64,000 nt of DNA, from positions 248,001 to 312,000 of the forward strand of contig SHYA01000001.1 in NCBI GenBank assembly GCA_009693055.1, read 5' to 3'. Made by a program: the position numbers and the translations under genes. Every line of letters begins with the position of its first letter. Within the stretch, counting starts at the first letter, position 1. This document shows, in pieces, positions 1,613 to 62,367 of the stretch. The notes under the pieces are model-generated. The model was not told the DNA's origin. It ran no database searches and saw nothing but the letters and a program-made list of their open reading frames with translations. Source of the stretch: Dehalococcoidia bacterium (GTDB taxonomy: Bacteria; Chloroflexota; Dehalococcoidia; Lucifugimonadales; SHYT01).

Positions 1613-1635
1613 AGTGTTCCCCTCTTAGTACCGCT

Positions 1636-1658
1636 CATCCTGAGCCTGTCGAAGGATG
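1636..1658 (-). repeat. CCTTCGACA-family palindromic repeat upstream of ffh
   Basis: CATCCTGAGCCTGTCGAAGGATG. Confidence 0.8.
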
Positions 1659-25855: not shown

Positions 25856-27175
25856 GTGACGTTCAAGGCGCCCCGTGGCACTAAAGACCTTCTCCCGGAG
25901 CAGCAGCCCCTCTGGCGGCACGTAGAGCAGACTGCGCAGGGGGTGGCGCGCCGCTTTGGGTACCAGCGGATAGATACGCCGATGTTTGAGGACGCGCACC
26001 TGTTTGTCCGCGGCGTCGGCCAGGGGACCGACATCGTGGAGAAGGAGATGTACGTCTTCAAGGACCGCAGCGACGACGAGCTGGCGCTGCGCCCTGAGGG
26101 CACCGCCCCGGTGTGCCGCGCCTACCTGGAGCACGGGATGGCCTCGCTGCCGCAGCCCGTCCGGCTCTACTACGTCTGCCCCATCTTCCGCTACGAGCGG
26201 CCCCAGGCCGGGCGCTACCGCCAGCATCACCAGTTCGGCGTGGAGGCGATCGGCGACGCCGACCCCGCCGTGGACGCGGAGGTGATTGAGCTGGGCTGGC
26301 GGCTGGTGGAACAGCTTGGGTTGAAGGACCTGTCGCTCGTGATGAACGGCATCGGCGACAAGGCGTGCCGCCCCGCGTACCTGGAGTCGCTGCGGGCGCA
26401 CTACGGCACGCGCCTGAGCGAGGTGTGCCCCGACTGCAAGCTCCGCTACGAGAAGAACATCCTGCGCACGCTGGACTGCAAACGGACGGACTTCAAGTGC
26501 CAGGAGGCGGCGGATACCGCGCCCCGCATCGCGGAGCGCCTCTGCGACGCGTGCCGCGAGCACTGGATGCAACTCACGCAGTACATCGGGGCGCTGGGCA
26601 TCCCGTACCGGGTGGAGCACCGGCTGGTGCGCGGCCTGGACTACTACACACGCACCGTGTTTGAAATCCAGCCCCGCGAGGAAGGCGCCCAGAGCACCAT
26701 CCTGGCGGGAGGCCGCTACGACGGGCTCATTGAAGAGCTGGGCGGCAGGCCCACGCCGGGCATCGGGTTTGGGACGGGGATTGAGCGGCTGGTCGCCAAC
26801 CTCCAGCGGTCAGCCGAAGGTGGAGACAAGCAGGTGACCGCCCCCGCGCCGGACACGCTCGTGGCCTACCTGGGCGCGACGGCCAAGGAGCAGGCGCTCA
26901 AGCTCGCGTCGGAGCTGCGGCGGCAGGGCGCGAACGTGGTGCTGGCGCCGGCGGGCAAGAGCCTGAAGGGCCAGATGCGCCACGCCTCCGCGCTGGGCGC
27001 GCGCGCAGTCCTCATCCTCGGCGACGAGGAGCTGGCGTCCGGCACCGTCACCTTCAAGGACATGGCGAGCGGCGAGCAGAAGCGGGTGCCGCGGGCGGAG
27101 GTGGGGGAGGCCCTTAAAGACCTCACCCCTCTCCATACAATGGAGAGGGGTAATGAGCATGGACAAGGAACGTAA
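25856..27175 (+). CDS. hisS: Histidyl-tRNA synthetase
   Basis: RGTKDLLPEQ, RPEGTAPVCRAYLEHG, RYERPQAGRYRQHHQFGVEAIG, GLDYYTRTVFEI, AGGRYDGL. Confidence 0.96.
   Translation: MTFKAPRGTKDLLPEQQPLWRHVEQTAQGVARRFGYQRIDTPMFEDAHLFVRGVGQGTDIVEKEMYVFKDRSDDELALRPEGTAPVCRAYLEHGMASLPQPVRLYYVCPIFRYERPQAGRYRQHHQFGVEAIGDADPAVDAEVIELGWRLVEQLGLKDLSLVMNGIGDKACRPAYLESLRAHYGTRLSEVCPDCKLRYEKNILRTLDCKRTDFKCQEAADTAPRIAERLCDACREHWMQLTQYIGALGIPYRVEHRLVRGLDYYTRTVFEIQPREEGAQSTILAGGRYDGLIEELGGRPTPGIGFGTGIERLVANLQRSAEGGDKQVTAPAPDTLVAYLGATAKEQALKLASELRRQGANVVLAPAGKSLKGQMRHASALGARAVLILGDEELASGTVTFKDMASGEQKRVPRAEVGEALKDLTPLHTMERGNEHGQGT
27126..27150. repeat. Palindromic element CCCCTCTCCAT-ACA-ATGGAGAGGGG at hisS 3' end
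   Basis: 11-bp perfect stem, 3-nt loop. Confidence 0.75.
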
Positions 27176-27188
27176 GCATCCAAAAGCA

Positions 27189-27290
27189 GGACCGTGGTGC
27201 TCATCCTGGGTGGGAACGAGAGGGCGTCGGGGGCGGTGAGTGTGAAGAGCCTGTGACAAGGGAGCAAACGCGGGTGGGGCGGGAGGAGGC
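27189..27290 (+). pseudogene. Degenerate duplicate of hisS C-terminal segment
   Basis: Translation RTVVLILGGNERASGAVSVKSL*QGSKR versus HisS RAVLILGDEELASGTVTFKDMASGEQKR. Confidence 0.5.
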
Positions 27291-27334
27291 GAGGCTGCGC
27301 GGCTTACCTCAAGTGGGAGGCACCCCATCCCGTT

Positions 27335-27357
27335 CGCCCTGAGCCTGTCGAAGGGCG
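27335..27357 (-). repeat. CCTTCGACA-family palindromic repeat
   Basis: CGCCCTGAGCCTGTCGAAGGGCG. Confidence 0.8.
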
Positions 27358-27378
27358 TCAGAACAGTGAGGACACGCC

Positions 27379-27720
27379 ATGAGTTTCCGGGCCTACATCC
27401 TGCTGTGTGCTGATAATTCGTACTACACCGGCCACACTGACAACCTTGAAACGCGAGTCGTTGCTCATGAGCGCGGAGAGATCCCTGGGTATACGTTCAC
27501 TCGGAGGCTTGTCCATTTAGCTTTCGCCCAGGATGTTCCTACGCGAGCGGAAGCTATTTCGGCGGAGCGGCAGATAAAGGGTTGGGGTCAACGAAAGAAG
27601 GAAGCGTTGATTAAGGGCGAGTGGGAACGGTTGCCGGAGTTGGCCAAGTCCTCATTTGGAACGCGGAAGGTGATTACAAAGCAAGGACACCCTTCGACAA
27701 GCTCAGGGCGAACGGAATAA
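27379..27720 (+). CDS. Small GIY-YIG endonuclease family protein
   Basis: YILLCADNSYYTGHTDNLETRVVAHERGE...AISAERQIKGWGQRKKEALIKGEWERL; C-terminus HPSTSSGRTE encoded by the repeat. Confidence 0.9.
   Translation: MSFRAYILLCADNSYYTGHTDNLETRVVAHERGEIPGYTFTRRLVHLAFAQDVPTRAEAISAERQIKGWGQRKKEALIKGEWERLPELAKSSFGTRKVITKQGHPSTSSGRTE
27690..27710 (+). repeat. CCTTCGACA-family palindromic repeat (inverted relative to 27335)
   Basis: CCCTTCGACAAGCTCAGGGCG. Confidence 0.8.
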
Positions 27721-27808: not shown

Positions 27809-27833
27809 CCCCTCTCCACATGGTGGAGAGGGG
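27809..27833. repeat. Palindromic element CCCCTCTCCAC-ATG-GTGGAGAGGGG
   Basis: 11-bp perfect stem, 3-nt loop, flanked by TTAGGGGTGAGG. Confidence 0.75.
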
Positions 27834-30282: not shown

Positions 30283-32622
30283 CTACCTGTGCAACCCCAA
30301 CAGCGCCTTCAGAAGCGTGACCGCAACGCCCTTGTCTAGCGGGTGGTTGTTGTTGCCACACTTGGGGGAGTAGACGCAGCCTGGGCAGCCCGACTCGCAG
30401 GGGCAGTTGGCGATGACGTCCAGGGTGGCGCGCCACAGCTCCTCGATCCGCTCATAACCGCGCTCCGAGATGCCAACGCCGCCGGGGTGGCCGTCATAGA
30501 TAAAGATAGTGGCGGTGCCGGTGTCCGGGTGGAGGGGCGTGGAGACGCCGCCGATGTCACGCCGGTCGCACAGCGCGAACAGTGGCAGCACCCCAATGGC
30601 GGCGTGCTCCAGCGCGTGCAGCCCGCCCGCCAGGTCCTGCCGCTTGGCCATGAGGGCTTTGCGCGTGTCCTCCGGCAGGTCAAACCAGAGCGCCATCGTG
30701 CGGAAGTGGTGGGGCGGCAGCTCCAGCGGCTCGTCGCCGAGCACCTGGTCCTCGTACTGCGCGATCTTCTTGTAGCCCAGCACCTGGCTGACCACCTCCA
30801 CCTCGCCGTAGAACACCTCCGAGCCGTTGGGTGCCTTTTTCTGCTTGCCGGTGGTGATGATGCGGGTGTCCGTCAGCTCGCGGGCGAGGGTGTAGTACGG
30901 GGCGTCTGTGGCGCCCACGAAGGCGGTGCCGGTGAGCCGGTCCAGGCGGGAGACGAGAAGCGCCTCGCCCTGGTGGAGGTACACCGCGCCCGGGTGGAGC
31001 TGCGTGAAGGCGGACGACTCGCCGATGCCCTCCTCCAGCACGCGGCCCGTCGCCTCCTCCACGACCACGTAGGTGGTGGCGTCCGTGGCGCGCAGCCGCA
31101 CCGCCTGAGCGGGGTACGCGATGCGGGTGTCCGGGAACCAGCCCTCAGCGCCCTCACGGAGCAACTCGTCCCTGGCCAGCTCGTCCACGCACTGGCGGAA
31201 TGTGGGGCCGAACAGCGCCTCGTCCTGGGGCGTCAGCGGCGCCTCGTAGGCGGCGCAGAGCAGGTGCGGCTTGAGGATGTACGGGTTGCCGGGCGAGACG
31301 AGCGCGTGCTCCGGCGAGCGGCCAAAGAAGAACTCCGGGTGGCGCATCAGGTACTGGTCCAGCGGGTCGTTGCGGGCGACGAGGATCGAGAGGGAGGGAG
31401 CGCCGCGGCGGCCGCTGCGCCCTGCCTGCTGCCACGTGCTGGCGATGGTGCCCGGATAGCCGGTTAGCACCGTGGCGTCCAGCCGCCCGATGTCCACCCC
31501 CAGCTCAAGCGCGTTGGTAGCGACCACACCCTTCAGCGTTCCGTCAAACAATTCCCGCTCGATGCGGCGGCGGTCCTCCGGCATGTAGCTGCCGCGATAC
31601 GGGGCCACCTGGCGCGCCAGCGCCTGCCCTGAGCCTGCCGAAGGGGCCGCGCCGTCGCCCGCGTCTGCGGAAGCGTCGTGCTGGCGGAGCAGGTCAAGCA
31701 CGTGGCGGTACACCAGCTCGGCGGAGCGGCGCGAGCGCACAAATGTGATCGTCCGCACTTGCCGGCGTAGCAGCTCGTGGAACAGCAGGGTCGCCTCGCT
31801 GCCCGCGCTGCGCCGGCTCCCCTTCGCCTCGTCCTCCACCGGCGGGTTCCAGAAGCTGAACGTCTTGCCGCCGAACGGCGAGCCGTCCTCCTGCACCTCG
31901 GTGAACGGCAGGCCGGTGAGCGCTTCGGCCAGCTCCCTGGGGTTGCCGATGGTGGCGGAGGAGAGGATGAACTGGGGCGTCGCGCCATAGCGGTGGCACA
32001 CGCGCCGGAGGCGGCGCAGCAGATCCGCCATGTGCGAGCCGAACACGCCGCGGTAGATGTGTGCCTCGTCCACCACGACGTAGCGGATGCCCTGGAACAG
32101 CCGCGACCACATCCTGTGGTTGGGCAAGATGCCGAGGTGGAGCATGTCCGGGTTGGAGAGCACCACCTGGGCGCGGGCGCGGACACCCGTCCGGTCTTCG
32201 TGGGGCGTGTCGCCGTCGTAGATGGCGCACAGCACGCGCGACTGAGGCGGCACCAGGTCGTGCAGGTGCCGGAGCTGGTCCTGGGCGAGCGCCTTGGTGG
32301 GGAACAGGTACAGCGCTTGCGCGAGGCGGTCCTCCAGCGCCGCGGCGAGGACGGGGATGTTGTAGCACAGGCTCTTGCCCGTGGCCGCGGGCGTGGAGAC
32401 TACCACGTTGCGCCCCTCGGCGAGCGCGTCTATCGCCTGGGCCTGGTGCGTGTACAGGCGGGTGATGCCCCGGGCGCGCAGCTGTTCCCGCAACAGGGGG
32501 TGGAGGGGTGCGCACGGCTCCTGGAAGCGCGCCTCGCGGACCGGCACCTCCTGGGTATGCACCAACTGGCCCTTGTACCACGGCCGGTGACGCACCCAGT
32601 CCAGGAACGCTGCGGTGTTCAC
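30283..32622 (-). CDS. DEAD/DEAH helicase with DUF1998-type four-cysteine C-terminus (MrfA/YprA-like)
   Basis: STPAATGKSLCYNIPVL, VVDEAHIYRGVFGSH, QQAGRSGRRG, CPCESGCPGCVYSPKCGNNNHPLDK. Confidence 0.9.
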   Translation of the reverse strand: MNTAAFLDWVRHRPWYKGQLVHTQEVPVREARFQEPCAPLHPLLREQLRARGITRLYTHQAQAIDALAEGRNVVVSTPAATGKSLCYNIPVLAAALEDRLAQALYLFPTKALAQDQLRHLHDLVPPQSRVLCAIYDGDTPHEDRTGVRARAQVVLSNPDMLHLGILPNHRMWSRLFQGIRYVVVDEAHIYRGVFGSHMADLLRRLRRVCHRYGATPQFILSSATIGNPRELAEALTGLPFTEVQEDGSPFGGKTFSFWNPPVEDEAKGSRRSAGSEATLLFHELLRRQVRTITFVRSRRSAELVYRHVLDLLRQHDASADAGDGAAPSAGSGQALARQVAPYRGSYMPEDRRRIERELFDGTLKGVVATNALELGVDIGRLDATVLTGYPGTIASTWQQAGRSGRRGAPSLSILVARNDPLDQYLMRHPEFFFGRSPEHALVSPGNPYILKPHLLCAAYEAPLTPQDEALFGPTFRQCVDELARDELLREGAEGWFPDTRIAYPAQAVRLRATDATTYVVVEEATGRVLEEGIGESSAFTQLHPGAVYLHQGEALLVSRLDRLTGTAFVGATDAPYYTLARELTDTRIITTGKQKKAPNGSEVFYGEVEVVSQVLGYKKIAQYEDQVLGDEPLELPPHHFRTMALWFDLPEDTRKALMAKRQDLAGGLHALEHAAIGVLPLFALCDRRDIGGVSTPLHPDTGTATIFIYDGHPGGVGISERGYERIEELWRATLDVIANCPCESGCPGCVYSPKCGNNNHPLDKGVAVTLLKALLGLHR
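31626..31646 (-). repeat. CCTTCGACA-family repeat inside helicase CDS
   Basis: GCCCTGAGCCTGCCGAAGGGG; encodes APSAGSGQALA. Confidence 0.65.
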
Positions 32623-32924: not shown

Positions 32925-33006
32925 CGCCCTTCGACAGGCTCAGGGTGAACGGAGTGGACGAGGCCGCGGCCATAGCGACCGCTCGTGCTGAGCTTGTCGA
33001 AGCACG
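32925..33006. repeat. Head-to-head pair of CCTTCGACA-family repeats
   Basis: CGCCCTTCGACAGGCTCAGGGTGAACGG (32925-32952) and CGTGCTGAGCTTGTCGAAGCACG (32984-33006). Confidence 0.75.
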
Positions 33007-60897: not shown

Positions 60898-62367
60898 ATG
60901 TACCACCCGACGCTGGAAGAGGTTAAACGGCTTGCGGGCCGGGGCAACCTGGTGCCGGTCTACCGCGAGCTGAACGCCGACCTGGAGACGCCCGTCTCCG
61001 CGTACCTGAAGGTCGCGCGGCCGCCGTACTCCTTCCTGCTGGAGAGCGTGGAGGGCGGCGAACGGATCGCACGGTACAGCTTCATCGGCACCGAGCCGTC
61101 GTGGGTGCTCAAGACGGGGCCGGGCTGCCCGGGCGGCGCGATTGACCCCCTCGTGCCGCTGCAAAAGCGACTGGCGCGCTACAAGCTGGTGCCCGTGGCG
61201 GGGCTTCCGCGCTTTCACGGCGGCGTGGTCGGTTACCTGGGGTACGACGCGGTGCGGTACTTTGAGCCGCGCGTTCCAAAGCCATCCAAAGACACCCTCG
61301 GCCTGCCAGAGGCGGTGTTCATGCAGGCGGACACACTGCTGGTGTTTGACCACGTGCGCCACAAGATCAAGGTGGTGAGCCACGCAAAGCTGGACGGCGA
61401 CACGGACAGGGCGTACGCGCGGGCCGTGGCGCGTATTGAGCGGGTGGTCAAGCGGCTGGAGCGCCCCTTGCGCTTGTCCAAACGCCCAGCACTGCCAGGT
61501 AATCCCGCTCATCCTTCGACAAGCTCAGGACGAGCGGAGCACAAGTCTAACTTCACCCGCGAGGGTTACCACTTGGCCGTGCTGCACGCCAAGGAGTACA
61601 TCACTGCGGGCGACGTCATCCAGGTGGTGCTCTCCCAGCGGCTGGAGCGTCCCACGAGCGCGGGCTCGCTGGACATCTACCGGGCGCTGCGCGCGATCAA
61701 CCCGTCGCCGTACATGTACCACCTGGCCCTGGACGACTTCGCCGTCGTGGGCGCGTCGCCGGAGCTGCTGGTGCGCGTGGAGGACGGGTTGGTGGAGAAC
61801 CACCCCATCGCGGGCACGCGGCCGCGCGGCCAGACAGAGGAGCGGGACGCAGCCCTGGAGCGCGAGCTGCGCGCCAGCGAGAAGGAGCGCGCCGAGCACA
61901 TCATGCTGGTTGACCTGGGCCGCAACGACATCGGCTGCGTCAGCCGGCCGGGCACCGTCAAGGTCACGCAGCTCATGGACGTGGAGCGGTACTCCCACGT
62001 GATGCACCTGGTCTCCCACGTGGAGGGGGGGCTGCGCCCGGAGCTGAACGCCTTTGACGCGCTCCGCGCCTCGTTTCCGGCGGGTACCGTGTCCGGCGCG
62101 CCGAAGATCCGCGCTATGGAGCTCATCTCGAAGCTGGAGGGCCAGGCCCGCGGCACGTACGCGGGCGCCGTCGGTTACTTCAGCTTCTCCGGCAACATGG
62201 ACACCGCCATCGCCATCCGCACCCTGGTGCTTAAGGACGGCGTCGCGTACATCCAGGCGGGCGGCGGCATTGTGTACGACAGCGACCCGGAGGCGGAGTA
62301 CCAGGAGACGCTGCAGAAGGCGCAAGCGCTGCTCCGCGCCGTGGCCCAGGCGGAAGAGGGGCGGTGA
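60898..62367 (+). CDS. trpE: Anthranilate synthase component I
   Basis: AKEYITAGDVIQVVLSQRLE, AGTRPRGQTEERD, LVDLGRNDIGCVSRPGTVKV, FPAGTVSGAPKIRAMELI. Confidence 0.96.
   Translation: MYHPTLEEVKRLAGRGNLVPVYRELNADLETPVSAYLKVARPPYSFLLESVEGGERIARYSFIGTEPSWVLKTGPGCPGGAIDPLVPLQKRLARYKLVPVAGLPRFHGGVVGYLGYDAVRYFEPRVPKPSKDTLGLPEAVFMQADTLLVFDHVRHKIKVVSHAKLDGDTDRAYARAVARIERVVKRLERPLRLSKRPALPGNPAHPSTSSGRAEHKSNFTREGYHLAVLHAKEYITAGDVIQVVLSQRLERPTSAGSLDIYRALRAINPSPYMYHLALDDFAVVGASPELLVRVEDGLVENHPIAGTRPRGQTEERDAALERELRASEKERAEHIMLVDLGRNDIGCVSRPGTVKVTQLMDVERYSHVMHLVSHVEGGLRPELNAFDALRASFPAGTVSGAPKIRAMELISKLEGQARGTYAGAVGYFSFSGNMDTAIAIRTLVLKDGVAYIQAGGGIVYDSDPEAEYQETLQKAQALLRAVAQAEEGR
61506..61537 (+). repeat. 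CCTTCGACA-family repeat inside trpE
   Basis: CGCTCATCCTTCGACAAGCTCAGGACGAGCGG; encodes AHPSTSSGRAE in frame. Confidence 0.85.

Follow-up and report, generated by a model that had tools for sequence, protein, structure and literature searches.

A small GIY-YIG nuclease gene between inverted copies of a cognate palindrome: a putative mobile system recurring in distant bacterial phyla

The question raised by the locus described here is whether a small nuclease encoded between inverted copies of a dispersed palindrome is the enzyme which spreads that palindrome. Short palindromic repeats are present in many bacterial genomes, and to our knowledge only one class of them, GTAG, has a dedicated enzyme, namely RAYT. 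The locus is situated in a 64,000-nucleotide stretch of DNA, referred to as the window, which belongs to a small Chloroflexota-type metagenome-assembled genome of 1.51 Mb in 11 contigs (about 94% complete; G000). Between hisS and a UvrD/PcrA-type helicase gene, the window possesses a GIY-YIG open reading frame of 113 codons (27379-27720, + strand; PF01541, E=3.8e-12), which was placed in the group called clade A below. Exact repeat cores flank this gene in inverted orientation at 27338-27354 (-) and 27691-27707 (+), as an earlier note made from the sequence alone had described. The full palindromic units occupy 27330-27357 (-), with the foot CCGTTC, and 27688-27715 (+), with the foot GAACGG, and both feet are directed away from the gene. 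The downstream unit overlaps the 3' end of the reading frame and provides its last ~10 codons, which encode the C-terminal HPSTSSGRTE, as the earlier note had read.

The five further copies reported in the earlier note were all recovered, two of them with 1-2 mismatches. Dispersed copies lie at 1631-1658 (-) and 61510-61537 (+), and a decayed copy with one core mismatch and no foot at 31628-31644 (-). The copies at 32925-32952 (+) and 32979-33006 (-) form an inverted doublet, the second half of which has the compensated stem CGTGC/GCACG. The window contains 7 matches (up to 3 mismatches) against 0.5 expected in shuffles. The genome-wide count which the note had proposed gave 19 exact copies of CCTTCGACARGCTCAGG in the 1.5-Mb genome and 0 of the reversed control. 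The repeats are mostly intergenic and are common in the host and related genomes.

Alignment of 124 distinct copies showed that the repeat has the form X(stem)-TCGA-CARG-CTC-X' followed by an unpaired ARCGG foot. X and X' covary: next to a T-A pair that hardly varies, the three inner stem positions form Watson-Crick pairs in 113, 115 and 118 of the 124 copies against 52, 60 and 84 expected if the two sides were independent, while the outer two positions are unconstrained. Because the inner pairs covary, pairing within the strand is maintained, as it is in REPs. Copies lying within 90 bp of each other are inverted in 69 cases and tandem in 17. The 54-nt inverted doublet folds as one hairpin of -17.8 kcal/mol (z about -5.4, as DNA); single short hairpins fold weakly (z -0.6 to -1.6), and a CGTC palindrome folds strongly (z about -5.2). 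Assignment of the window repeat to the CGTC-REPs, defined by a CGTC/TGTC/CCTC tag, a stem of 8-9 bp and a CCA tail, was rejected on account of its short covarying stem and ARCGG foot. This definition was fitted only by the palindromes of clade C.

A profile built from six relatives yielded 80 named loci with 81 clade-A genes, distributed over Chloroflexota, Alpha-, Beta-, Gamma- and Delta-proteobacteria and Dependentiae. A palindrome was found within about 250-300 bp of 78 of the 81 genes and on both sides of 58 (72%), while random positions in the same loci had one nearby in 3.5% and on both sides in 0.03% of cases. Homologues lying near a repeat only as often as chance predicts, which the earlier note had named as evidence against a link, were thus not what was observed; the test it had proposed, whether homologues are flanked by inverted copies, gave palindromes on both sides of the 58 genes, mostly with outward feet. 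The strict motif occurred in both flanks of 50 loci, in one flank of 11 and in neither flank of 19, and its density near the clade-A gene was 46-fold that beyond 500 bp. In the 19 missed loci, mostly from Sphingomonas, inspection of the flanks revealed mostly variant loops with an unchanged foot. With the general form X-TCGA-loop-CTC-X'-ARCGG, a palindrome was located within 250 bp in 77 of the 80 loci. The nearest upstream copy was in - orientation in 54 of 66 cases and the nearest downstream copy in + orientation in 62 of 69, so the feet generally point outward from the gene. The upstream and downstream palindromes of a locus also resemble each other. Their loop class agrees in 44 of 58 loci where 26 would be expected, and their foot type in 56 of 58 where the expectation is 42.8; not one of 10,000 permutations attained either figure. 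The strict repeat was present in 30 of the 32 named genomes of these loci, in 2 to 82 copies, with 0 for the reversed control. Taken by sequence, inverted cognate bracketing is near-obligate for clade-A genes.

Clade A is one of three sister clades of small GIY-YIG nuclease (A, B and C), each of which has its own palindrome family. The clade B palindrome is X-TCG..CTC-X'-TGACA, and that of clade C is GGATTCC..GGAATGACG, which is the CGTC-REP with the foot TGACG/CGTC. The matrix of clade against palindrome for 182 non-redundant genes was close to diagonal, with off-diagonal counts of 0-2, which is the background level. Near A genes, 217 A-palindromes were counted (3.26/kb against 0.094/kb far from them), and 0 near B and 0 near C genes; 36 B-palindromes were near B genes (2.18 against 0.042/kb) and 40 C-palindromes near C genes (3.16 against 0.094/kb). 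Genes assigned to A which lacked a palindrome were mostly of the YazA/YhbQ type or of other sister clades. A motif-free test, in which the longest word common to both flanks had to reach at least 12 nt, gave such words in 64 of 86 A, 17 of 29 B and 16 of 23 C genes, in 4-7% of the control pairs for these three clades and in 0 of 19 YazA-type genes. Flank type also tracked the protein tree, with 18 changes against a shuffled mean of 71.6. The host genome itself carries two clade B genes, one just right of the window (L020, G000:C11:313770) with TGACA-foot palindromes on both sides, the other (L021, G000:C9:127740) with one on one side. A clade-A-like gene of Methylobacterium bullatum (L362) is flanked by a different palindrome, CCTCATCCTGAGG..CCTCGAAGGAGG. 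Words of 12-50 nt common to both flanks were also seen in more GIY-YIG clades, of the GSTKNLERR and GSAADL types (L179-L185, L189), which may have their own, undescribed palindromes.

According to Di Nocera in 2013 (PMC3733652), no dedicated transposase serves the CGTC-REPs, which include dRS3 of Neisseria and for which A. lipoferum, N. aromaticivorans and Neisseria were named. Clade C genes are surrounded by palindromes of this kind, in species of that study; the difference is that here they bracket a GIY-YIG nuclease, and the clade A palindrome of the window is a separate family. For Alphaproteobacteria, clade C was tested through PLSDB records. CGTC-REPs bracket C genes in Neisseria gonorrhoeae, Azospirillum lipoferum 4B and Novosphingobium aromaticivorans DSM 12444, and also in Aeromonas caviae, Neorhizobium, Rhizobium, Shinella and Sphingobium. 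The C gene of Sinorhizobium meliloti has a variant palindrome, the C gene of Rhizobium tumorigenes has no bracketing palindrome, and none was found at the control, Bacillus subtilis yazA. By their flanks, clade C nucleases are candidate partners of the CGTC-REPs. In A. lipoferum 4B the clade C cassette (L350) is lodged in the suf operon, with sufB on one side and sufC on the other. The record of L349 and L443 (NZ_CP119140.1) is a 2.17-Mb N. gonorrhoeae replicon which PLSDB lists among its plasmids although it is evidently chromosomal.

The protein belongs to the GIY-YIG nuclease superfamily by its PF01541 match, catalytic residues and fold. Y6, Y16 and R26 do not vary among 47 homologues, and H30 and E63 hardly do; these five we take to be the residues expected of a GIY-YIG active site. 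The AlphaFold2 model of the window protein (pLDDT 86.5) matched first UPF0213 (1zg2, 1ywl), followed by the branched-DNA nuclease Slx1 and the N-domain of UvrC. The UPF0213 or YazA-YhbQ proteins are thus the closest solved structures and have an equal single-domain size; their genes differ in having no bracketing palindromes in the data set. A structure-specific nuclease would be a reasonable partner for a hairpin-forming repeat. A role in anti-phage defence was considered and rejected, there being no PADLOC match, and phage cargo was rejected with only 41-46% identity among the phage matches listed.

The explanation preferred here, with a probability of roughly 0.6, is that the nuclease cleaves its own palindrome and that cassette and repeats together constitute a mobile system which is RAYT-like and non-homologous to RAYT. 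The window would then contain a full-length mobile unit in which the GIY-YIG gene has a hairpin on either side and, beyond each hairpin, a foot. Palindromes dispersed singly or as inverted doublets would be related elements that are not autonomous, standing to this unit as REPs do to RAYT genes. The nuclease would cut its palindrome when this has folded out into a hairpin or cruciform, on the lagging strand or in supercoiled DNA, at or beside the ARCGG foot, and host repair would copy or join the break or the freed hairpin into intergenic DNA. Doublets without a gene would be mobilised in trans; the gene would often be lost and the repeats persist as fossils. Host repair is invoked because GIY-YIG enzymes cut DNA by hydrolysis and, unlike transposases, do not become covalently attached to it; the proposed mechanism would therefore differ from the chemistry of RAYT. 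What the sequences show is a unit structure, cognate specificity, covarying stems and movement of the unit.

Movement of the unit is indicated by paralogues and by empty sites. Genomes with two clade-A genes (e.g. G378, G379 and G375) have for each gene its own matched palindrome type, unlike that of the paralogue; the ends were therefore not drawn from the random genomic pool of repeats. In G358 the homology of two paralogous units begins at the upstream foot (CACCGTTCG), ends at the downstream foot (GAACGG) and does not extend further on either side. The cassette lying between LysE-type and metF-type genes in G243 is absent in G097, the flanks of which are 95% identical, and in G088 and G148; that of the window is likewise missing in G002, where the gap between hisS and pcrA measures 283 bp, and in the matching gap of G001. 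In the genus g81, repeat elements were gained at four sites: at two of them the element is present in one of six genomes, at the third in two of six, and at the fourth it is absent from four compared congeners. No target duplication was seen, the intergenic DNA between congeners being too diverged to fix insertion points. These comparisons show that the gene moves together with its repeats.

In another explanation, the nuclease gene is a selfish parasite of homing type for which a multicopy palindrome serves as landing site. The nuclease would cut the palindrome, recombination between repeats would copy the gene into it, and the repeats would be spread by other means. GIY-YIG is a classical homing-endonuclease fold, and the catalytic core of Tyr, Tyr, Arg, His and Glu is shared with I-TevI and I-BmoI. 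Repeats without the gene are far commoner than genes without repeats, the G243 cassette adjoins a repeat which is also present in G097, and cassettes abut half-palindromes such as CCCTTCGACT|CACCGTTCG. However, the nearest repeats are a matched, outward-footed pair delimiting the unit, and paralogues retain different matched ends. There is no phage or intron context, and no close phage homologue was present among the matches listed. Unlike homing endonucleases, the window unit has no intron or intein and no separate DNA-binding tail, and its putative target is its own ends; compared with a homing-endonuclease gene, which is nested in an intron, intein or conserved target gene and cuts the empty allele, it is intergenic and has palindromic ends, and empty sites for it do exist. 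This explanation is considered unlikely. Cassettes or repeats abutting or lying within half-palindromes CCCTTCGACT|CACCGTTCG were recorded at L395 (G357), L397 (G373) and G386:C19 and C45, and arrays in which a 14-bp half unit or a unit of ~44-51 bp is repeated in tandem were seen in this set.

Cleavage of the palindrome could also serve the host. The enzyme might be a domesticated housekeeping nuclease that trims or resolves hairpins and cruciforms and guards replication, with the flanking copies regulating its own expression and no mobilisation. The clade-A gene is of low copy, usually 1-3 per genome, which indicates that self-transposition is not efficient. Its fold is close to that of Slx1, and cassettes occur in conserved operons (nrdR-GIY-YIG-RNA methyltransferase, rnc-GIY-YIG-era) and as in-frame RNA methyltransferase fusions in Sphingomonas. 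The distribution in a sample of 301 Chloroflexota genomes tells against this reading, and against the preferred one as well. The clade-A gene is present in only four (G000, G226, G243, G277) of the 23 repeat-rich genomes, those with at least 4 strict copies, and absent from 19, although B or C genes, accompanied by their cognate palindromes, occur in some of the 19. The earlier note had named repeat-rich genomes without the gene as counting against a link, and such genomes do exist. The strict repeat occurs in 7 of the 8 genomes with a window-clade gene, some of them broken, compared with 39 of all 301; only G127 lacks it, and its clade-A gene is broken. The gene thus implies the repeat, and not the reverse, and the nuclease is not needed for repeats to persist. 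Loss of the gene while repeats remain would agree with this pattern. The gene is also absent from all six g81 genomes in spite of the gains described above; spread may thus do without a clade-A nuclease in residence, or the gene may have disappeared after the gains. Whole units present or absent at syntenic sites, and paralogues homologous from foot to foot, further show the gene moving with its repeats, and a purely housekeeping role is judged distinctly improbable. In-frame fusions of the GIY-YIG domain with an RNA methyltransferase of the TrmJ/SpoU type occur in Sphingomonadales (L107, L109, L126, L128, L129, L132, L133, L136, L137, L139, L140, L143, L150, L157, L159, L165 and L171), and some fusion linkers look repeat-encoded, e.g. 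RALRLRSGRTE.

The architecture is much like that of RAYT and REP, RAYT genes being described as always flanked by two inverted REPs (PMC2817692). Like RAYT/TnpA_REP with its GTAG-tagged REPs and REPINs, the present system has a small gene flanked by palindromes that are inverted and carry an unpaired foot. In both systems the stems covary, each clade has its cognate palindrome, inverted doublets occur, and a genome has one or few copies. It differs in its enzyme, a hydrolytic GIY-YIG protein (PF01541) and not an HUH-tyrosine one (PF01797), and in its foot, which is ARCGG (A), TGACA (B) or TGACG/CGTC (C) and not GTAG. A RAYT or IS200-type HUH transposase might still move the repeats with the GIY-YIG gene as cargo; no Y1_Tnp domain was found in the genome, which is about 94% complete, nor in most repeat-rich relatives. 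With PF01797 absent, RAYT as mobiliser is effectively refuted here save for an unrecognised HUH enzyme, and this explanation is very improbable. The interpretation in the earlier note is partly supported. Its bracketing and its RAYT analogy hold up well: the cognate palindromes are inverted and form matched pairs, their stems covary, empty sites exist, and RAYT itself is absent from the genome. The chemistry of GIY-YIG enzymes is not that of RAYT. MITEs and miniature insertion-sequence elements are likewise short non-autonomous elements with the ends of a gene-bearing unit, and differ in that no DDE transposase and no target duplication were seen here. Compared with an insertion sequence, which has a transposase, inverted ends and a target-site duplication, the window unit has inverted ends and no known transposase, and the present divergence is too great for duplications to be traced. 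Finally, chance or a passive gathering of repeats in short intergenic gaps around an expendable gene is hardly tenable, and is refuted for the association by shuffles, clade matrix and random positions: although the repeats are mostly intergenic and common in these genomes, both-side bracketing far exceeds that of random positions, the palindromes are clade-specific with near-zero cross-association, and YazA-type relatives have none.

A second nuclease-palindrome pair was observed around the window cassette. An unrelated palindrome, CCCCTCTCC..GGAGAGGGG, brackets the whole cassette with copies at 27126-27150 (+) and 27809-27833 (+), 2 in the window against 0 expected. In G001, at the site matching the window cassette, the same palindromes bracket a DUF559 gene (PF04480, E=1.3e-33), and a stretch at 27121-27198 (+) is 85% identical to G001:C1:51224-51301. 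By this similarity, the window cassette is placed inside the relic of a DUF559-nuclease cassette which is still present in the relative G001. DUF559 (PD-(D/E)XK) genes with CCCCTCTCC..GGAGAGGGG-type palindromes were also seen in Azospirillum, Deinococcus, Qipengyuania and cyanobacterial plasmids, and palindromes of the type at L416 (1077-1101 and 1508-1532). Among DUF559 genes in PLSDB records, 6 of 11 had words of at least 12 nt common to both flanks against 6.9% of controls, often CCTCCCC-type palindromes. A literature search covering few subscription journals found no link of GIY-YIG with such repeats, no mention of the window motif and no link of DUF559 with such repeats. It is proposed, tentatively, that the mobilisers still missing for most bacterial palindromic repeats outside the GTAG class are small stand-alone nucleases. 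GIY-YIG would contribute at least three clades, A, B and, for CGTC-REPs/dRS3, C; DUF559, paired with CCCCTCTCC-type palindromes, would be an independent case. Each would form a mobile class that does without a transposase, cutting its own hairpins and relying on host repair.

The recurrence of the nuclease-palindrome unit in distant phyla suggests a previously unrecognised, putative kind of small mobile DNA. Each of the three repeat families gains a candidate partner nuclease, in several phyla and in species amenable to laboratory work such as Novosphingobium aromaticivorans. The question comes down to a small protein, about 95 residues long, and a hairpin of 28 nt, and if cleavage holds true, the pair would represent a mobile-element strategy without a transposase.
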